This document shows positions 722-34,556 of a DNA stretch of 36,392 bases, piece after piece. Each line of letters starts with the position of its first letter. The first letter of the stretch is position 1. The stretch is taken from positions 1-36,392 of the forward strand of contig JAHBYM010000014.1 of the NCBI GenBank assembly GCA_019635975.1, read 5' to 3'. This DNA is from Parvibaculum sp. GTDB lineage: Bacteria; Pseudomonadota; Alphaproteobacteria; Parvibaculales; Parvibaculaceae. The position numbers and the translations under genes were made by a program. Below the pieces are notes generated by a model. That model searched no databases. It was not told the DNA's origin and worked only from the letters and a program-made list of their open reading frames with translations.

Positions 722-1567
<846 letters not shown>

Positions 1568-1756
1568 CGAAATGGCTTTCCCCTGGGACGCGGCAACGAA
1601 CGCTTGAGCCAAGCGCTGACCGCTGGATATCGAATTGCTGAACGGCTGAGAAACTAATGTGTGACCTTGGCCGGTTCAAGGAAAAGGCCTGTGCGCTGGC
1701 GGCAGTCGTGCCATTCGATTTCGAGCGGCAAGGGGCCGCCGCGGCCGCTGACCTTG

Positions 1757-6785: not shown

Positions 6786-7163
6786 TCAGCCCTTCTGGTA
6801 GAGGCCGGCGGCGATTTCGCGGTTGATCATGATCAGCGTGTCGAGGAGCTGCGGCTCGGGCTCGCGGTTGGCCTCGATCTCGGCGGTGCGCTTGAAGATG
6901 AAGACGGCGAGATTGGCGATGTTCTGCTTGATCTCGCGCGGCAGCGGATGCTCGAGTTCGGCGGCCGAGGCGGCGAAGACGGTCCAGATGCGGCGATTGT
7001 AGAGCAGGGCGTCGCGCAGCGTAGCGTTGGATTCGGCAGTCCAGTTGTCGCGGATGCGCTGAAGCTGGCCGGCGGCGCGGGTGAGGATCGACGCCTCGAA
7101 CTCGCGCGGATCCGAAATCGTCATCCGCGACGCGCTGGCATAGGCCTCATGCGGTCTTGACAT
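6786..7163 (-). CDS. flaF: Flagellin synthesis regulator FlaF
   Basis: 125-residue cytoplasmic protein of the FlaF family, required in alphaproteobacteria for flagellin synthesis or secretion and working against FlbT. The conserved core runs from MSRPHEAYASAS through ILTRAAGQLQ, then DALLYNRRIWTVFAA (about 52-66), LPREIKQNIANLAVFIF (74-90) and the C-terminal INREIAAGLY. The length is typical. Its start overlaps the end of flbT by 17 bp on the same strand, so the two are translationally coupled, as in other alphaproteobacterial flagellin loci. It ends before a bidirectional terminator. Confidence 0.92.
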   Translation of the reverse strand: MSRPHEAYASASRMTISDPREFEASILTRAAGQLQRIRDNWTAESNATLRDALLYNRRIWTVFAASAAELEHPLPREIKQNIANLAVFIFKRTAEIEANREPEPQLLDTLIMINREIAAGLYQKG

Positions 7164-7539
7164 TCTCCAGCAACCCCCGTTCGTACTCGATCAGCTTTCG
7201 AGCTTCCTTGAGAGCTTTATACATTTCGCCGGTTAAGATTTTACTGTTGATGGCGTCCAGATGGGGACGCGTGGATGGCGCCGCTTCGGCCACATCCTTA
7301 ACGATCTGGAAATACATATCGTGGTGCGGGCGCGGATCGGGCGAGAGATACATCATCTGGACGAGCAGGTAGACGCGCTTGCAGGGCGTGTCGGCGTCGG
7401 CGGCACGCAGGATGTCCTTCTCGCGCAGGATCGGCGCGTCGCCCTCGATGAACAGGCGCGTGCGCTGGTCGTCGTTGGTGATGACGCTGTCGCCGAGGAT
7501 GAAGCGTTCGCCGGGCTTGAGTTCGACTTTGAGGGCCAT
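7147..7539 (-). CDS. flbT: Flagellin mRNA regulator FlbT
   Basis: 130-residue FlbT, an RNA-binding post-transcriptional regulator. In Caulobacter it binds the flagellin leader and promotes mRNA decay until the hook is complete. The conserved N-terminus MALKVELKPGERFILGD and the block LVQMMYLSPDPRPHHDMYFQ are clear. The frame is open 34 codons further upstream, but those codons look non-conserved, and this ATG is preceded by GGAACGGAACGG. It overlaps flaF downstream. Upstream lie a terminator and flagellin 1, so flbT needs a promoter between 7540 and 7648 or relies on read-through. Confidence 0.92.
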   Translation of the reverse strand: MALKVELKPGERFILGDSVITNDDQRTRLFIEGDAPILREKDILRAADADTPCKRVYLLVQMMYLSPDPRPHHDMYFQIVKDVAEAAPSTRPHLDAINSKILTGEMYKALKEARKLIEYERGLLENVKTA

Positions 7540-7713: not shown

Positions 7714-8838
7714 TTAGCGCAGCAGCGCGAGGACGCTCTGCTCCGACTGGTTGGCCAGCGACAGCGAGGTCGAGGCCAGCGACTGGCGGGTCTGCAGGGC
7801 GAGCAGGTTCGCCGCTTCGACGTTGGTGTCGGCCAGCGTCAGGTTGCCCGCACCGGCTTCCAGAACATCGATCATGTTCTTGGTGAAGTCCTGGCGGCTC
7901 TGCACGACCGAGAGGTTCGCACCGAAGGTCGAGGACTGCTTGCGCAGCGTCGCCGTCGCGGCGTTCAGCTTGGTCACTTCCGCGTCGATGTCGGAGAAGT
8001 CGGTGTCCGTGAGGCCGATACCGGAAGCATTGAACGTCACGCCTTCGATATCGAGCTTCGAGGTGCTCGACTCGTTGAACATCACCGAGAGGTTGTTGCC
8101 GGCGAGCAGGTTGATGCCGTTGAAGCTCGTGTCGAGCGACAACTGATCGATCTGCGCGAGCAGGTTGTTGTAGTCGGTCGAATAACCGGCCTTGGCTTCG
8201 GCCAGCGTTTCGCCGTTCGTGGCGGCGCCGTTGATGCCGAGCGTTGTGGCGGCAGCACCGGCAATCGTGATGTCCTCACCGGAAGCGAGGGCGAAGGAGA
8301 GGCCGGCACCCGAAACCGTGACGGTCAGGCCGTCGATGTTGAGGGCGTCGATGCCCGCCTTCACAGCGGCAGCGGCAGATGCACCGGTCGCGAAGTTGCT
8401 ACCCGCGCCAGTCGGGATCACGACGTCCTGGGCGGCGGCCGTGCCGATCTGGATCGAGTAGGTGCGCGTTGCGGCGGTACCACCCGAAAGGTTGGCAGCC
8501 GACACCGTCGAGTTGAGGGTTGTCGCCGTCGCCTTGGACTGCAGCGCCTGGTTGGCAACCGACTTGGCCTGGTCGACCAGCTTCTGGATCGACTTGATAC
8601 CTTCGTCGGCGGCACGCAGCGTCTGAACACCGAGGCTCATCGAGTCGAGCAGGGCGCTCATGTCGGTCGCGCGGCTCGAAAGGCCGGCGGCCGTGAAGTA
8701 GGACTGCGGATTGTCGAGAGCGGACGAAACCTTCAGGCCGGTGGCCAAGCGGTTCTGCGTCTGCGCCATGAGCTGTGCGGTGTTCTGCAGCGTGAGCAGG
8801 TTCGTCCGCACGGCGCTCGAAATGGTGATATCACCCAT
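7714..8838 (-). CDS. Flagellin 1
   Basis: 374-residue flagellin, the filament subunit exported by the flagellar apparatus. The N-terminal D0/D1 helices (AVRTNLLTLQNTAQLMAQTQ, then NRLATGLKVSSALDNPQSYF) and the C-terminal helices (FTKNMIDVLEAGAGNLTLAD, then ANLLALQTRQSLASTSLSLA) are typical of alphaproteobacterial flagellins. The centre (about 120-215) is a Thr/Ala/Gly-rich beta region like the flagellin IN motif and offers many Ser/Thr sites for O-glycosylation. It is paralogous to the flagellin upstream. It has its own terminator and possibly its own sigma-54-like promoter; AGGAAAGGAAC upstream of the ATG is a good ribosome-binding site. Expression is probably controlled by FlbT/FlaF next door. 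Confidence 0.95.
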   Translation of the reverse strand: MGDITISSAVRTNLLTLQNTAQLMAQTQNRLATGLKVSSALDNPQSYFTAAGLSSRATDMSALLDSMSLGVQTLRAADEGIKSIQKLVDQAKSVANQALQSKATATTLNSTVSAANLSGGTAATRTYSIQIGTAAAQDVVIPTGAGSNFATGASAAAAVKAGIDALNIDGLTVTVSGAGLSFALASGEDITIAGAAATTLGINGAATNGETLAEAKAGYSTDYNNLLAQIDQLSLDTSFNGINLLAGNNLSVMFNESSTSKLDIEGVTFNASGIGLTDTDFSDIDAEVTKLNAATATLRKQSSTFGANLSVVQSRQDFTKNMIDVLEAGAGNLTLADTNVEAANLLALQTRQSLASTSLSLANQSEQSVLALLR

Positions 8839-9041: not shown

Positions 9042-10223
9042 TTAGCCGAAGAGGCGCAGGACGCCCTGTTCGGCCTGGTTGGCCAGCGAGAGCGCCGTGG
9101 TGCCCAACTGCTGGCGCGTCTGGAGGGCCAGCATCTTGGCGCCTTCCTCGTTGGTGTCGGCGACCACTAGGCTCGAAGCACCGGATTCCAGCGTGTTGAT
9201 CAGCGACTTGGTGAAGTCCTGGCGGATCTGCACGACGCCGAGATTGGCGCCGAAAGTCGAGGCCTGCTGGCGCAGCACATTGGTGGCGGCGTTCAGGTTT
9301 TCGACGAAGGCCTTGATTGCGGCGTCGAGAGCAAAACCGTGATCGCCGGATTCGCTGGCGACCTCGGCGATGTTCAGTGCGCCGTCCGGCGTCAGCGAGA
9401 CGCCCTGGATGTCGAGCTGGCTCGTCTGTTCGGTGTTGAAGAAGACGCTGAGCAGGTCGCTGCCCTTCAGCAGGTTGACGCCCTTGTAGCTCGCGTCGCC
9501 GGCCAACTGGTCGATCTGCTCGCGCAGATTGTTGAAGTCGCGTTCGTATTTGTCGCGATTGACACCGTCGGTCGCCGTGGTGCGGCTGCCGACAAGTCCA
9601 TCGAGGCTGACGGCCGTACCGCTGTCGTTGGCGGAAATCGAAATATCGCGGCCATTCGCGGCGGTGAACTGCAACTGGCCCTCAGCGGTGAGCGTCGCGG
9701 TGAGCGGTTCGTCGCCGTCGAAAGTGGCGGCGACCCAGTCCATAAGGGCCGTGACGGTGGCGACCTGGGTCGAGCCGGCGCCGATGGTCACGTTGTGGGT
9801 GACCTCGCCGACCGTGACGACGATCTGGTGGCCGGCGGACAGTCCGCCGAGGCCCGCGAGCGCCCGTCCGCCTGTGAGCGGCGTGTTCTGGTTGCCGGTC
9901 AGGACCGTTGCCTTGATCTTGGTTTCGAGCGCCTGGTTGGCGACCGATTTCATGCTGTCCACGAGCTTCAGGATCGACTTGATGCCCTGATCCGCCGCTT
10001 CCAGCGTCTGCACCGCCTGACCCATCGAGTCGAGCAGGTTGTTCAAATCCGAGGCACGGTTGTTGAGACCCTGCGCCGTGAAGAAAGCCGTCGGGCTGTC
10101 GACCGCGCTGCGGACCTTCAGACCCGTTGCAAGGCGGAGCTGCGATTCATCGAGCAGCCTTGCGGTATTCTGCATGCTGAGCAGATTTGACCGGATCGCA
10201 CCGGAAAGGACCACATCAGCCAT
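9042..10223 (-). CDS. Flagellin 2
   Basis: 393-residue flagellin paralogue. The conserved D0/D1 ends are present: AIRSNLLSMQNTARLLDESQ, then RLATGLKVRSAVDSPTAFFT at the start, and FTKSLINTLESGASSLVVAD with ALQTRQQLGTTALSLANQAE at the end. The variable centre (about 120-225) again has beta-strand IN-like character (HQIVVTVGEVTHNVTIGAGS). It differs clearly from flagellin 1, so the filament is likely to use two distinct subunits. It lies downstream of the FlmG-like glycosyltransferase gene on the same strand, with a 329-bp gap that should hold its promoter. Confidence 0.95.
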   Translation of the reverse strand: MADVVLSGAIRSNLLSMQNTARLLDESQLRLATGLKVRSAVDSPTAFFTAQGLNNRASDLNNLLDSMGQAVQTLEAADQGIKSILKLVDSMKSVANQALETKIKATVLTGNQNTPLTGGRALAGLGGLSAGHQIVVTVGEVTHNVTIGAGSTQVATVTALMDWVAATFDGDEPLTATLTAEGQLQFTAANGRDISISANDSGTAVSLDGLVGSRTTATDGVNRDKYERDFNNLREQIDQLAGDASYKGVNLLKGSDLLSVFFNTEQTSQLDIQGVSLTPDGALNIAEVASESGDHGFALDAAIKAFVENLNAATNVLRQQASTFGANLGVVQIRQDFTKSLINTLESGASSLVVADTNEEGAKMLALQTRQQLGTTALSLANQAEQGVLRLFG

Positions 10224-10552
10224 TGTCTCTACCCTCCAGGGTTTGGCTCGGCCGTCTCATGGCGGCACGGGCACTACACTCGGCATTAATCATTAATTCG
10301 ACGTAAACAGTCCGAACTGCATTTCGATTTGGCTGTCGATCCGCCGATTGAAGATCGTCAACCGCTTCGCCGTCGAACCGGGGGCGTGAGGCAATCTGGA
10401 TTGCGATCCTGCACCCGCGATTTCATCTGCCGTTCTCTTCGCAAAGGCCGGGCCAGAAATAAAACAGAATAGAATCAACGGGTTATGTGGAGGGCGCGTG
10501 AAGATGGCTGGCAGGAACTGCCGCGGACCGGGAAAGTTTTGCCGAGCCGAGC
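10224..10552 (-). other. 329-bp non-coding region upstream of flagellin 2
   Basis: No convincing gene is seen. The part nearest flagellin 2 should hold its promoter. An AT-rich block with ATTAAT-c-ATTAAT at 10285-10297 stands out, but I found no good sigma-54 match, CtrA box or CGGCA-N5-TGCCG palindrome. The far end is only weakly featured. Confidence 0.5.
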
Positions 10553-12175
10553 TCAACCGCGGACGAATGCGGCGACGTCCACCGCAATGCGTTCGATCAA
10601 TGCCGAGCGGTCAGTGGTTTGATCGAGTGCATAGCAACGCATTGTGGGAAACCAGGGCAGGCGATCGGTGCCGAGTTTCGTCCATGCCCGCGGTGCGGTG
10701 TAGTGAAAGCAGGGAACGCCGAGACCGGCCGCGAGTGTGGCCGGAAAGCTCGACGGCGCAACCGCGGCTTCCATGCAGGCGCTCAGCGCAGCCGCACCCT
10801 CGATATCGTTGAACAGGTCGAGACCGGGCATCCGGTGAAGTGTCATGCCGAAATCGCGCTGCAAGGCGGCTGCTTCCTCGGTCACATCCGTATATTGCAG
10901 ATTGACGATCCGGGCTCCTTCAATGGCGAACAGCTCTTTCCAGTCGTTCAGATCGGTGTAGAGGCGCGATCGAAGGCTGGTCTTGACGGCCGAACTCCAG
11001 GACAGACCGATCACGGGGCCGGAGCCGAGCGTGTCGAGCCATGCGCGGCACTCCGCGACGCGCGCCGGGTCCGGCACGAGAAAACGCGGTTCCGCGGGGA
11101 AGGCGTCGAGGTTGCGGCGCAGCAGCGCGGCCGCCATGCCGGCAGGCGCCGTGAAATCGAAATCGACGTCGCCATAGTTTTCGAGACCGGTCGACGTCGC
11201 GGTTTCGGCGCGCACCGTCGCTTCGGGCCATGTCCGGCGGTAAAGCGAAACCAGGCGCGGGTTGGTTTCAATAATGACGTGGCCGGCGCGGGCGATCAGG
11301 TCGGTGTAGCAGGTCGAAAAGATCACATCGTCGCCGATGCCTTGTTCCCGCCAGACCATGATTGTCTTGCCGGTGAGGTCTTCGCCCTCCCAGATCAACC
11401 CCGGAAAGGGGCGACAGGGCAGGCGTTGGCCGCAGGCAAAGCCGAAGCCGTACATGTCCCAGCCCGCCTCGATATGGCCGGTTGCGAGGAGGAGACGAGC
11501 GAGATTCCAGCGTGTGGCGTCGCAATCGGGCTTCAGCAGAAGCGCCTGTTCGCAGATTTTCAGCGCTTCGTCGTGCCTGCCGATCGATTCGAGCATGGCC
11601 GCGAAGTTGGTGTAGACCGTTGGACTGTTCGGCTTCAACTCGATCGCGCGGCGGTAGCAGATCATGGCATCGTCGAACTGGGCAGCATTGGCGAGAATCC
11701 GCCCGAGCGACGCATAGGCATCGGCCGCATTTGGATCGAGTTCCAGTGTGCGGGAGAGGAGATCCGCAGCGCGCTGCGCTTCACCGCGTTCGTCGAGCAG
11801 ATTGGCAAGATTGACGAGGGCGACCGGCGCGTCAGGCGTGATCGTCAACACGCGCTCGTAGAGTTTCTCGGCGAGACGGTAGTGCTGGATAGCGAGACAG
11901 ACCTGCGCAAGCTCATAAAGCGGCTGTTCGTTGTTTTCGGTTTCGGCCGCGACGCCGTCGAGCATTTCAACGGCTTCCTGCGATCGGCCGGTGGCTATCA
12001 GCGATCGGGCGAGACCCGTCAGTGCCGCCTTGTCGTCCGGCTGGGCGGCCAGCACCTTGCGGAAGCGCGATACAGCCTCGGCGTGGCGGTCCTGGGCCTG
12101 AAGCCGGAGGCCCTGTTCGAGTTTCTTGCGGATTGTGCCGCTGTCGCCTTCGCGCCGTTTCTTCAATGCAGACAT
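10553..12175 (-). CDS. TPR protein with glycosyltransferase-like C-terminus (FlmG-like flagellin glycosyltransferase)
   Basis: 540-residue protein. Residues about 20-245 form tandem tetratricopeptide repeats (for example AVSRFRKVLAAQPDDKAAL and AAQFDDAMICYRRAIELKPN). The C-terminal half is like GT41/GT9-type glycosyltransferases: WEGEDLTGKTIMVWREQGIG, then DDVIFSTCYTDL, GPVIGLSWSSAVKT and a late SACMEAAVAPSSFPATLAAG that fits the nucleotide-sugar site. This two-part layout matches Caulobacter FlmG, whose TPR half binds flagellin and whose other half adds pseudaminic acid-type sugar to it. Position beside two flagellin genes supports that role. No pseudaminic acid pathway genes are in the window. 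Domain layout is seen; the FlmG identity is inferred. A general TPR glycosyltransferase is the alternative. Confidence 0.72.
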   Translation of the reverse strand: MSALKKRREGDSGTIRKKLEQGLRLQAQDRHAEAVSRFRKVLAAQPDDKAALTGLARSLIATGRSQEAVEMLDGVAAETENNEQPLYELAQVCLAIQHYRLAEKLYERVLTITPDAPVALVNLANLLDERGEAQRAADLLSRTLELDPNAADAYASLGRILANAAQFDDAMICYRRAIELKPNSPTVYTNFAAMLESIGRHDEALKICEQALLLKPDCDATRWNLARLLLATGHIEAGWDMYGFGFACGQRLPCRPFPGLIWEGEDLTGKTIMVWREQGIGDDVIFSTCYTDLIARAGHVIIETNPRLVSLYRRTWPEATVRAETATSTGLENYGDVDFDFTAPAGMAAALLRRNLDAFPAEPRFLVPDPARVAECRAWLDTLGSGPVIGLSWSSAVKTSLRSRLYTDLNDWKELFAIEGARIVNLQYTDVTEEAAALQRDFGMTLHRMPGLDLFNDIEGAAALSACMEAAVAPSSFPATLAAGLGVPCFHYTAPRAWTKLGTDRLPWFPTMRCYALDQTTDRSALIERIAVDVAAFVRG

Positions 12176-12271
12176 GCCGGATGTCGCTCCCGTATCCCGC
12201 CCGTTCGATTCCGAGTGCCTATCTGCGGGCCATCGTGGTTACCACCGGGTTAACGGCGGATGCAACGCAGT

Positions 12272-12751
12272 TCAGATTCGGGCGTCGAGCGTGAGAGAGG
12301 CGGGCGCGGCCGGATTTCCGGCACGGCGGGCGGCCGGGGCGGCGTCGCGGCCATAGCCCAGTGTCGGCGCGGCGCGTTCGTTCATCGCGCTGGCGACCAT
12401 GCGGATCAGGCCTTCGGATACCGAGCGGGCGGCGTTGAGCGCCTCGCCGTTTTCGGCCAATGCACGGTCGAGTTCGATCATCGCCGTTTTCAGCTTCGAG
12501 ACGCGCTCGGCCGGCGCGCGGTCGATCAGGTCCTTGCGGCGGCGGATCGCTTCGGCGTCCATCGCGTAGTCGTTGGCGATGCGGATTTTTTCAGGTTGCA
12601 GCGCGGCGACCTCGGACCGGGCGCGGTCGCGCAGAAAGCCCGTCTCGCGCCGCACGATATCGGTCAGGCCGGCCGTCAGTTCGAGCATCCGTTCGACCAG
12701 ATCGGCGGGTGTCAGCGCTTCGGCGGCGGTGCGGCGGGCGGTTGCTGTCAT
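12272..12751 (-). CDS. FlgN-like flagellar chaperone/regulator (FlbY family)
   Basis: 159-residue, mainly helical cytoplasmic protein. It has long amphipathic helices (LVERMLELTAGLTDIVRRET, then EVAALQPEKIRIANDYAMDA) and a Pro/Ala-rich tail. The fold and position match FlgN-type export chaperones for FlgK/FlgL, called FlbY in Caulobacter. It starts inside the end of flgJ (4-bp overlap), so flgI-flgJ-flbY form one coupled operon, the same order as in Caulobacter. It is identified mostly by context and helical pattern, so the family is likely but the chaperone role is not proven. Confidence 0.7.
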   Translation of the reverse strand: MTATARRTAAEALTPADLVERMLELTAGLTDIVRRETGFLRDRARSEVAALQPEKIRIANDYAMDAEAIRRRKDLIDRAPAERVSKLKTAMIELDRALAENGEALNAARSVSEGLIRMVASAMNERAAPTLGYGRDAAPAARRAGNPAAPASLTLDARI

Positions 12752-13065
12752 TTGGGCGCTTCCTGCATCTTCAGCATCTCGCGATAGACGACGTCGGCAA
12801 GGCCGATGCCGCCGCTTTTGACCATCTCGCGGCCATATTGTTCGACGAGCAGCGAGCGGAACATGTTTTCGCCGGGTCCGCCGCCAAAGGCATCGTCCTG
12901 GCCGGTTCCTTCGAACATCGGCTGCAGAAGCACCGAAACGAACTGGGCCTCGAAATCGCGCGCGGTTTCCCAGGCGCGCATGTCGCGCGGCTCGGCGGCC
13001 GGCTTCGGCGCCGGCGCGTGCGTAAAGGGCTGGGGCGGGACGGGGAGGGCTGCGAGGTTCATCAC
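12748..13065 (-). CDS. flgJ: Flagellar rod-binding protein FlgJ (rod-binding domain only)
   Basis: 105-residue rod-assembly factor containing only the rod-binding domain (PF10135): RDFEAQFVSVLLQPMFEG, then GENMFRSLLVEQYGREMVKS and GIGLADVVYREMLKMQ. It lacks the C-terminal muramidase domain of enteric FlgJ, as is usual in alphaproteobacteria, so a separate peptidoglycan hydrolase must open the wall. A proline-rich stretch (about 9-25) precedes the domain. It overlaps flgI by 4 bp upstream and flbY by 4 bp downstream. Confidence 0.92.
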   Translation of the reverse strand: MMNLAALPVPPQPFTHAPAPKPAAEPRDMRAWETARDFEAQFVSVLLQPMFEGTGQDDAFGGGPGENMFRSLLVEQYGREMVKSGGIGLADVVYREMLKMQEAPK

Positions 13066-14201
13066 ATCACCTCAATGTTGGCCTGCAAGGCGCCGGCGGA
13101 CTTGATCGCCTGCAAAATGGTGATCATGTCGCGCGGGCTGACGCCGAGCGCGTTGAGCCCGTCGACAAGTTCCTTCAGGCTGATGCTGCCGTCGATAATG
13201 CCGAGCTTCTTGCCGCCCTCTTCGTCGACCGTGACGTTTGTCCGCGGTACGACAACCGTGTCGCCCTGCGTCGAGAAGGGCGACGGCTGGCTGACCTGTG
13301 GGGTTTCGTTGACCGAGATGGTGAGATTGCCCTGTGCGATCGCGACCTGACTGACGCGGACGTCCTGGCCCATGACGATGACGCCGGATGCTTCGTCGAT
13401 GACGACGCGGGCGGCGAGATCGGGCTGGACGCGCAATTGTTCGATGTCGGTGAGAAGGCCGACGACACCGCCGCGATATCCGGCGGGCATGCGGAGTTGC
13501 ACCGTGGTCGGATTGTCGGCGGTTGCCGTGCTGGCGCCGAGATAGGTGTTGATGGCGGCGGCAACGCGCTGTGCCGTCGTCAGGTCCGGATTGCGCAGCG
13601 AAAGGCGCAGCGAGCGCAGTTCGGACAACTGGAATTCGAGTTCGCGCTCGACAATGGCGCCGTTGGCGATGCGGCCATTGGTCGGTACGCCGCGCACGAC
13701 CGAAGAGGCTTCGCCCTTGGCCGAGAAACCGCCGGTTGCAACCGAACCCTGGGCGACGGCATAGACCTGGCCGTCGGCGCCCATCAGCGGTGTCACCAGC
13801 AGTACGCCGCCCTGCAGGTTGGTCGCGTCGCCAAGCGCCGAGACCGTTACGTCGATGCGGGTGCCCTGGGCGGCAAAGGCCGGCAGATCGGCCGAAACCA
13901 TGACGGCGGCGACGTTGGCGGTTTTCAACGTCGTGCCGCGCGTGTTGACGCCAAGGCGTTCCAGCATGCCGATCAGGCTCTGCTGGGTGAAGGGCGCGTT
14001 GCGGAGCGTGTCACCGGTGCCGTTGAGGCCGACCACGAGGCCGTAACCGACCAGCATGTTGTCGCGGATACCTTCGACATCGACGATGTCCTTGATGCGC
14101 GAGCTGGCGCTTGCCTCGACCGGCATGGTGGCGGTCAGAAGGGCGGCGGCGAGCACGAGCGTCAGGAAGGAGCGGAGACGAAGGGCAATAAGCCGGGACA
14201 T
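13062..14201 (-). CDS. flgI: Flagellar P-ring protein FlgI
   Basis: 379-residue periplasmic protein that forms the P-ring around the rod. A Sec signal peptide (MSRLIALRLRSFLTLVLAAA, then a cut after EASA) precedes the mature start SRIKDIVDVEGIRDNMLVGY. GLVVGLNGTGDTL and the C-terminal LVDGLNALGVSPRDMITILQ are family hallmarks. An ATG 51 bases upstream is in frame, but 14201 places the signal peptide at the N-terminus, so it is preferred. It is transcribed divergently from fliX, with a control region holding a CtrA box and an ftr-like palindrome between them, and heads the flgI-flgJ-flbY operon. Confidence 0.94.
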   Translation of the reverse strand: MSRLIALRLRSFLTLVLAAALLTATMPVEASASSRIKDIVDVEGIRDNMLVGYGLVVGLNGTGDTLRNAPFTQQSLIGMLERLGVNTRGTTLKTANVAAVMVSADLPAFAAQGTRIDVTVSALGDATNLQGGVLLVTPLMGADGQVYAVAQGSVATGGFSAKGEASSVVRGVPTNGRIANGAIVERELEFQLSELRSLRLSLRNPDLTTAQRVAAAINTYLGASTATADNPTTVQLRMPAGYRGGVVGLLTDIEQLRVQPDLAARVVIDEASGVIVMGQDVRVSQVAIAQGNLTISVNETPQVSQPSPFSTQGDTVVVPRTNVTVDEEGGKKLGIIDGSISLKELVDGLNALGVSPRDMITILQAIKSAGALQANIEVM

Positions 14202-14272
14202 GGACCAACCGATCAATCGCTTGCGATACGGCGTCTCTCTAGCGAAAGACATGCCATCCGGCGGCCCGGCAC

Positions 14273-33574: not shown

Positions 33575-34556
33575 GGGGAGTGAATTGCTATATTTCGGTC
33601 ATAGGAGATGACGCCCATGACCAAGATGACCCTCAAGACCTTCAACGCCCGCTTCCCGGACGATGACGCCTGTCTGGACCATCTCATGGCGGTCCGCTAC
33701 GGCCACAAGTTCCATTGCGGCACCTGTGGCGCGGACGCCAAGCATCACAGGGTCAAGGGCCGCCGCTGCTATGAGTGCGAGTTCTGCGGCCATCAGGTCT
33801 ACCCGACCGCCGGGACGCCTTTCGAGCGCACCCGCACAAGCCTCCGGGACTGGTTCTTCGTCATGTACCTGTTCACGACGACCCGTAACGGGGTCAGCGC
33901 GAAGGAAATCCAGCGCCAGATCGGAACCACCTACAAGACGGCATGGCGCATGGGCCACGAAATCCGCAAGTACATGGGTTGGGTTGACGGTGACGACCCT
34001 ATCGGCGGCGACAAGATCGTTGAGGCCGACAAGGCTTTCATCGGCGGCAAGGACAAGCGGGGCCATGACGACAAGACCGTGGTTCTCGGCATGGTCGAGC
34101 GGGGCGGCGACGTGATTACCCGCATCGTCGCAGAGCGCGGCGGCTTCTTTGTCGTCCCCCGCATTATCGAGCATGTGAAGCCCGGTTCGCGGATCGCAAC
34201 CGACGAAGCCGGTGCCTTCAAGGGCCTCGCGGATGAGGGTTTCCGTCACGGGACCGTCAATCACTCCAAGAAGGAATATGTCAGAGGCGACGTGCATACC
34301 AATTCAATCGAAGCCTTCTGGTCCAGCCTCAAGCGCGGGATTTCGGGGACCCACGTTTGGGTTTCGCCTCAGCACTTGCAGAAGTATCTCGGCGAGTTCG
34401 AGTTCCGCCATAACCTTCGGAAGCGCCCGCACCTGATGTTCGAGCTTCTTTTGCAGGCTTTTCCTCGCCCCTGACCATCTTGGACAGGAGAAGATCGAAA
34501 CGAGAGAACGCCATTTACCTGTTTCCTTCCTAGCCGGTTGGCTAACAATATCACCC
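33575..34556 (+). mobile_element. Probable IS1595-type insertion sequence (ends tentative)
   Basis: A transposase gene lies between imperfect inverted ends. The left end begins GGGGAGTGAATTGCTA and the right end, read inward on the minus strand, begins GGGTGATATTGTTA; with one or two gaps GTGA-ATTG-TA and a downstream TAGGA agree. No clear 8-bp target duplication was found, so the exact boundaries are uncertain. It could be an old copy, or the true right end could lie beyond the next gene. Confidence 0.4.
33617..34474 (+). CDS. IS1595/ISXO2-family transposase
   Basis: 285-residue DDE-type transposase. An N-terminal zinc ribbon has C34xxC37 and C54xxC57 (HCGTCGADAK, YECEFCGHQVY). The catalytic region has the first Asp in VEADKAFIGG, the second in IATDEAGAF and the family HTNSIEAFWSSLKRG near the third carboxylate. 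The ATG at 33608 touches the AGGAG, so the next ATG, 9 bases on, is chosen. The gene is intact, with no visible frameshift, so the element may still be mobile. It lies between the cckA-linked kinase and an unrelated membrane protein gene, in a segment unlike the surrounding flagellar DNA. Confidence 0.9.
   Translation: MTKMTLKTFNARFPDDDACLDHLMAVRYGHKFHCGTCGADAKHHRVKGRRCYECEFCGHQVYPTAGTPFERTRTSLRDWFFVMYLFTTTRNGVSAKEIQRQIGTTYKTAWRMGHEIRKYMGWVDGDDPIGGDKIVEADKAFIGGKDKRGHDDKTVVLGMVERGGDVITRIVAERGGFFVVPRIIEHVKPGSRIATDEAGAFKGLADEGFRHGTVNHSKKEYVRGDVHTNSIEAFWSSLKRGISGTHVWVSPQHLQKYLGEFEFRHNLRKRPHLMFELLLQAFPRP

Follow-up and report, generated by a model that had tools for sequence, protein, structure and literature searches.

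FlmG of Caulobacter crescentus (CCNA_01524) is a flagellin pseudaminic acid O-glycosyltransferase in which an N-terminal TPR domain precedes a C-terminal GT-B domain. Its gene lies beside flagellin, flbT and flaF genes, and the protein carries an EQGxGD[D/E] core. Binding of flagellin by the TPR domain is known for Caulobacter only, and the founding FlmG paper raises the question of whether nonulosonic acids other than pseudaminic acid can be accepted by the enzyme (PMC7591256). Maf flagellin glycosyltransferases likewise act in cytoplasmic flagellin O-glycosylation with nonulosonic acids, and belong to a different family from FlmG. Here, we describe a gene of Parvibaculum sp. that shares the domain layout, neighborhood and core motif of Caulobacter FlmG. 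The stretch of DNA analyzed, which we call the window, is a single contig of 36,392 nucleotides (C46) from a 337-contig assembly that is 84.37% complete.

The gene starts with ATG and contains an uninterrupted reading frame (Table 1). TPR families in Pfam cover residues 19 to 240 or thereabouts of the encoded protein (best TPR_19, 3.3e-28), and the NCBIfam matches to TPR proteins that were shown all fall under their cut-offs. The C-terminal half matches no glycosyltransferase family in Pfam or NCBIfam at E 0.001, no Pfam match to a GT41 catalytic domain was found at that threshold, and the protein does not match PF01973 (Maf, MptE-like). Because the family HMMs give no glycosyltransferase match, assignment of this half rests on the fold predicted by AlphaFold2. 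The model, for which the window protein was aligned with 44 FlmG relatives (44 of the 80 named loci), has a mean pLDDT of 86.5 and a pTM of 0.81, and shows helical repeats at residues 13-247 followed by a mixed strand-helix part. Residues 264-540 of the model align with the GT9 GT-B structure 3tov_B with a Z score of 17.4 and an rmsd of 3.4 over 264 residues (VIA-align), and matches to the full-length model are SPINDLY and OGT. The predicted likeness to GT9, SPINDLY and OGT is one of fold, and is no demonstration of function. An N-terminal TPR domain followed by a predicted C-terminal GT-B domain is the layout given in the original prediction, and it is borne out by Pfam for the repeats and by the model's alignment to 3tov_B for the GT-B half.

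The flmG gene lies upstream of, and on the same strand as, two flagellin genes, which are followed by flbT and flaF. Upstream of flmG, also on the same strand, are an unnamed gene, flgJ and flgI. Both neighbors originally called flagellins carry Flagellin_N and Flagellin_C domains. The unnamed protein has no family match in Pfam or NCBIfam; it may be a flagellar protein similar to FlbY or FlgN. The order flgI-flgJ-unnamed gene-flmG-flagellins, with flbT and flaF, recurs in all seven loci of the family that were read. In 17 of another 18 one-piece loci from the genus, flmG has a flagellin gene as its neighbor; in the remaining one, the contig ends there. FlmG is present in 33 of 37 family genomes, and the four genomes without it have either no Flagellin_N match or one weak match in a 155-aa frame. 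Elsewhere in the window, an AAA ATPase gene (722-1612(-)) adjoins the flagellar genes, and its homologue stands beside FlmG in many Caulobacterales loci; an IS1595-type transposase gene (33608-34474(+)) lies close to the contig end.

Table 1. Features of the flmG locus in the window.
Feature	Position	Strand	Basis
flaF, flagellin secretion chaperone family	6786..7163	-	PF07309
flbT	7147..7539	-	PF07378, 2.2e-44; listed ORF extends to 7641 from TTG
flagellin 1 (predicted acceptor), with hypervariable middle domain	7714..8838	-	Pfam Flagellin_N, Flagellin_C
flagellin 2, predicted acceptor	9042..10223	-	Pfam PF00669/PF00700 (Flagellin_N, Flagellin_C)
low-identity block versus sister genome G001, 58-81% per 250 bases	10500..12250		DNA comparison and 4-fold sites
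flmG orthologue, TPR + GT-B flagellin O-glycosyltransferase (predicted), 540 aa	10553..12175	-	ORF; reciprocal best hit with Caulobacter FlmG; AlphaFold2 model
GT-B catalytic domain (predicted), residues 264-540	10556..11386	-	alignment to GT9 structure 3tov_B, Z 17.4
D504 of LGTDxxPW, weak candidate donor-linked residue	10664..10666	-	alignment; independent-pairs test not significant
EQGIGDDVIF, residues 277-286; EQGxGD core	11318..11347	-	aligned relatives
TPR domain (predicted to bind flagellin), residues about 13-247	11435..12139	-	Pfam TPR matches; helical repeats in AlphaFold2 model
conserved unnamed gene, 159 aa, between flgJ and flmG	12272..12751	-	same place in relatives
flgJ, rod-binding protein	12748..13065	-	PF10135
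flgI, P-ring protein, first in conserved order	13062..14252	-	PF02119

The window protein and Caulobacter FlmG are about 31% identical and have the EQGxGD core in common, as seen in the alignment that the original prediction had proposed as a check. In all seven Caulobacterales and Rhizomicrobium genomes tested, the best match of the window protein is the flbT/flaF-adjacent FlmG. With FlmG of C. vibrioides OR37 as the query, the window protein is the sole match in its genome (G000) at E<=1e-10, and the flagellar-locus TPR-glycosyltransferase tops the matches in 11 of 11 Parvibaculum genomes. The window protein and Caulobacter FlmG are reciprocal best hits. Our set of named FlmGs comprises 80 loci from a scan of genome contigs; flbT lies near 73 of them, flaF near 69 and a flagellin gene near 57, short contigs included. 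The FlmG-like identity first suggested for the gene stands, upheld by reciprocal best hits, conserved neighborhood, matching architecture and fold, and co-occurrence with flagellin. We file the gene as a member of the FlmG family on the basis of orthology, architecture and synteny, with binding and catalysis as predicted properties.

The motif EQGIGDDVIF had been thought unusual by comparison with EQGLGDTIQF, a point that our alignments do not sustain. E277, Q278, G279, G281 and D282 are invariant both in 16 diverse relatives and in 45 aligned FlmGs, and the residue after GD is aspartate in Parvibaculum, glutamate in Caulobacter-type FlmGs, and serine or alanine in two generic TPR-glycosyltransferases; GD[S/A]IQF belongs to these more generic enzymes. 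The Parvibaculum motif is not odd, since FlmG-type proteins normally have an acidic residue behind GD, and with the core invariant as well, we reject the motif difference as a sign of a new enzyme class.

Overall, the window gene very probably encodes the FlmG orthologue of Parvibaculum, an enzyme predicted from sequence and model to O-glycosylate flagellin in the cytoplasm. Our data show orthology, architecture, predicted fold, synteny, the pse genes and the divergence pattern described below; flagellin binding, transfer, donor and sites are inferred. The N-terminal TPR solenoid would capture the two flagellins encoded just downstream, and the C-terminal GT-B domain would move sugar from a soluble activated donor to serine or threonine residues of flagellin. 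The glycosylated sites are probably in the exposed flagellin middle domain, and glycosylation would precede FlaF-assisted export. What speaks against this reading is the low identity to Caulobacter FlmG (about 31%) and the fact that no glycosyltransferase family HMM matches.

We compared the window with the genome of a sister species (G001). FlgK, FlgL, FlaF, FlbT, the unnamed protein, FlgJ, FlgI, FlgA, FlgG and FlgF are 96-100% identical between the two, and FlgH is 95% identical. The FlmG proteins are 62% identical (TPR domain 53%, glycosyltransferase domain 71%), and the flagellins are 82% (flagellin 1) and 91% (flagellin 2) identical. At the DNA level, most intervals flanking the low-identity block around flmG stand at 92-98%, the flagellin middles excepted: identity drops again to 58% in the middle of flagellin 1 and, less deeply, to 78% in flagellin 2. 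Divergence at 4-fold sites reaches 0.48 for flmG and 0.46 for the middle of flagellin 1; it is 0.26 for either flagellin gene taken as a whole, and 0.05-0.13 in the other genes compared. This raised silent-site divergence argues for import by recombination rather than for selection on the protein alone. Judged by these comparisons with the sister species, recombination seems to have replaced the flmG allele and the middle domains of the flagellins. A chimeric contig or assembly is a possible source of the divergent flmG, but the single contig, the intact gene and breakpoints close to the gene ends all speak against it, as does a similar disparity seen when assembly G012 is compared with G022 (FlmG 49%, FlgK 94%, FlgL 97%). 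The latter pair is an imperfect parallel, with wider divergence upstream that takes in the unnamed gene (77%) and FlgJ (76%). Our flagellar core tree is a quick tree of 27 genomes with unequal gene coverage, in which missing data give some placements (G002, G012, G022) odd branch lengths.

The original prediction had noted the lack of nucleotide-sugar genes in the window, left the donor blank, and suggested a genome search for pse/neu genes. The window ORFs that were scanned agree with the first point, and the search fills the blank: contig C273 (18.9 kb) of the same genome holds a NeuB-family gene within a five-gene pse set, with PseB (548.1 bits), PseC (558.6), PseF (309.4), PseG (157.0) and PseI (490.8) each over its NCBIfam cut-off. 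The candidate for PseH is a GNAT protein at 51.2 bits, under the cut-off of 93.1. A nonulosonic acid pathway, with its PseH candidate below cut-off, is present in the same genome as flmG, and Maf (PF01973) has no match anywhere in that genome. The five-gene set makes CMP-pseudaminic acid a plausible donor, and we put forward CMP-pseudaminic acid from this cluster as the most likely donor in this species, with our confidence about evenly balanced. Against it, the cluster is not near flmG and its PseH candidate is under the cut-off; moreover, a fragment of a WbaP-like sugar-phosphate transferase (lipid-linked sugar transferase type) adjoins the cluster, which may for this reason serve a surface polysaccharide.

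The genus-wide pattern weakens the case for pseudaminic acid on flagellin. Among 26 FlmG-bearing Parvibaculum genomes, PseI is over its cut-off in five (G000, G001, G012, G017, G022), another NeuB-type gene of 216-229 bits is present in nine, one (G026) has a NeuB-family fragment at a contig edge, and 11 give nothing at E<=0.001 with TIGR03586 or PF03102. Within the near-complete subset (>=90% complete, <=5% contaminated, n=19), nine genomes have a NeuB-family synthase, counting the G026 fragment as present, and the family is absent by TIGR03586 and PF03102 from the other ten (G003, G004, G006, G007, G011, G014, G015, G016, G019, G020), which keep both FlmG and flagellin. As a control, we searched 50 FlmG-bearing Caulobacterales and Rhizomicrobium-type genomes drawn from the 80 named loci (all 18 isolate-like or complete genomes plus 32 MAGs); the NeuB family PF03102 is present in 49 of these, the only one without it being Caulobacter sp. 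B11 (2.5 Mb). The difference in NeuB presence between genus and control gives a Fisher p of 2.6e-6, a value that ignores genome relatedness. In the ten near-complete genomes without NeuB, FlmG therefore needs another donor or has another role.

By eye, no donor genes were seen in the flagellar locus of nonulosonate-free species (stretches in L041, L044 and L045). Nonulosonate-type CMP transferases follow the NeuB split in the scan of 37 genomes (G023-G036 outside), save for one orphan in G007. This orphan is a PseF-like CMP transferase (L176:1071-1790) that scores 80.6 bits, under its cut-off, and the searches found no NeuB-family gene in G007. Nearly all genus genomes scanned have a long match to CMP-sugar transferases, which we read as KdsB by its length.

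A tree of glycosyltransferase domains (46 rows, leaving out the truncated FlmG of G026 and a fragment, copy 1 of G034) contains two well-supported clades in the genus. Clade A has 14 rows (support 100/99), 13 of them from genomes with nonulosonate genes; clade B has 11 rows (support 100/99), with such genes in one (G022). From these alignments and searches, clade A and nonulosonate genes broadly coincide, and G022 breaks the rule. Clade B FlmG, G022 aside, is without a nonulosonic acid donor as far as searches can tell. On the tree, the presence of nonulosonate genes changes at least three times, and the type of synthase also at least three times. The FlmGs of G001 (PseI) and G013 (NeuB-type) are 88% alike despite their different synthase types, which counts against a pseudaminic acid donor, as do the ten near-complete congeners without a NeuB-family gene. 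In three NeuB-type clusters of clade A genomes (L173, L174 and L175, from G018, G025 and G008, respectively), we observed a PseB-like gene (tested in L173 and over cut-off there) and no match to the PseC query; the L173 NeuB protein is under both the PseI and the NeuB cut-offs.

No simple donor-site signature for nonulosonate users emerged from the alignments. Position 504 is aspartate, asparagine or alanine in clade A and glycine or proline in clade B genomes without NeuB; G022 has aspartate and G009, of clade A, has alanine. As a marker of nonulosonate genes, this position does somewhat better than the SSFP/WNA difference described next, but it was a post hoc choice among 37 differing columns, and an independent-pairs test with only three pairs, two of them agreeing, gives p 0.5. 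A difference between SSFP and WNA at about residues 475-478 fails as a donor signature, as G022 combines PseI with WNA, and Caulobacter FlmGs have SNA. The Ser/Thr content of the flagellin middle domains is 0.263 and 0.237 in clade B versus 0.23 and 0.173 in clade A.

Two readings of these data remain: either FlmG in the genus does not use nonulosonates, or clade A does and clade B does not. Under the first, Parvibaculum FlmG would be independent of nonulosonic acid and take a universal donor, most simply CMP-Kdo, with the Pse and NeuB clusters serving LPS or exopolysaccharide. CMP-Kdo is a candidate because KdsB-length transferases are near-universal in the genus and because Maf enzymes are reported to transfer Kdo (PMC7591256). 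The ten of 19 near-complete genomes that keep FlmG and flagellin without NeuB fit this scheme, as do the close tie of nonulosonate-type transferases to NeuB (the G007 orphan apart), the three or more changes of synthase type on the FlmG tree, and the adjoining of nonulosonate clusters to WbaP. We nevertheless consider it rather unlikely, given NeuB in 49 of 50 other FlmG-bearing genomes and the agreement of both clades with their gene content (13 of 14 rows with nonulosonate genes in clade A, 10 of 11 without in clade B), an agreement that suggests FlmG may track its donor.

It is improbable that clade B FlmG, in species that lack a nonulosonate donor pathway, has lost its enzyme function and persists as a TPR flagellin-binding factor only. 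Clade B does depart from Caulobacter-type FlmGs at W498 and D504, residues common in the latter, but its glycosyltransferase domain is full length and keeps E277, Q278, G279, G281, D282, W393 and S395, whereas decay would be expected of an inactive domain. Finally, a GT41/OGT-like TPR enzyme that O-glycosylates proteins in general with UDP-GlcNAc as donor, its gene being adjacent to flagellin genes by chance, would suit the full-length structural matches to SPINDLY and OGT, but is highly implausible in view of the missing Pfam GT41 match at E 0.001, the alignment of the glycosyltransferase half by itself to GT9, the strict co-location with flagellin genes, and FlmG as the best match.

Returning to our preferred reading of the gene as an FlmG orthologue that glycosylates flagellin, we tentatively suggest, at less than even confidence, that flmG and the exposed flagellin middle behave as a surface cassette that recombination exchanges among species, and that a whole clade has moved to another donor, for example CMP-Kdo. 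If so, FlmG would be an enzyme class able to work without any nonulosonic acid.

The window gene is a sound annotation as a new member of the FlmG family, and what makes it of interest is that, across the genus, FlmG is uncoupled from nonulosonate synthesis and flmG appears to be exchanged together with flagellin middles. Close FlmG orthologues accompanied by Pse-type genes, by another NeuB type or by neither make the genus a natural experiment on donor specificity, in which P. lavamentivorans DS-1 (matched to G014), a cultured and polarly flagellated type strain, appears on the side with none. Because FlmG co-varies with flagellin middles, the genus could also be used to match TPR surfaces with the flagellin surfaces that they read. 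There is no novelty in hypervariability itself, since variable flagellin glycosylation loci have already been treated in the literature. Kint, Dubois and Viollier reportedly described FlmG reprogramming in EMBO J in 2023. Our literature search, mostly without full texts, found nothing on FlmG in Parvibaculum or on FlmG without nonulosonic acids.

Set against known systems, the Parvibaculum protein is shorter than Caulobacter FlmG (540 versus 596 aa), and its gene runs in the same direction as the flagellin genes and lies upstream of them; in named relatives, flmG and flbT are divergent. Unlike the Caulobacter locus, flmG here comes after flgI-flgJ, and the apparent allele replacement and the nonulosonate-free members are likewise features of Parvibaculum. 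In Rhizomicrobium-type genomes, a second TPR-glycosyltransferase lies a few kb from a short NeuB-family gene of about 290 aa (L178:3105-7260 in G040; G129:C12:123751-127812), and L178 also has a CMP-sugar transferase-type frame; this linkage of enzyme and donor is missing in Parvibaculum. The sister genera g3, g4 and g5 encode a second flagellar-locus TPR-glycosyltransferase of the same family, in tandem with the orthologue of the window gene (L042:8148-9986, L043:8244-10079 and L049:9373-11247), which forms a separate tree branch and is absent from the Parvibaculum flagellar loci read; the two members of such a pair may transfer different sugars or act on different flagellins. OGT and SPINDLY (GT41), also cytoplasmic protein O-glycosyltransferases with a TPR solenoid followed by GT-B, resemble FlmG in fold, with no GT41 match in sequence.
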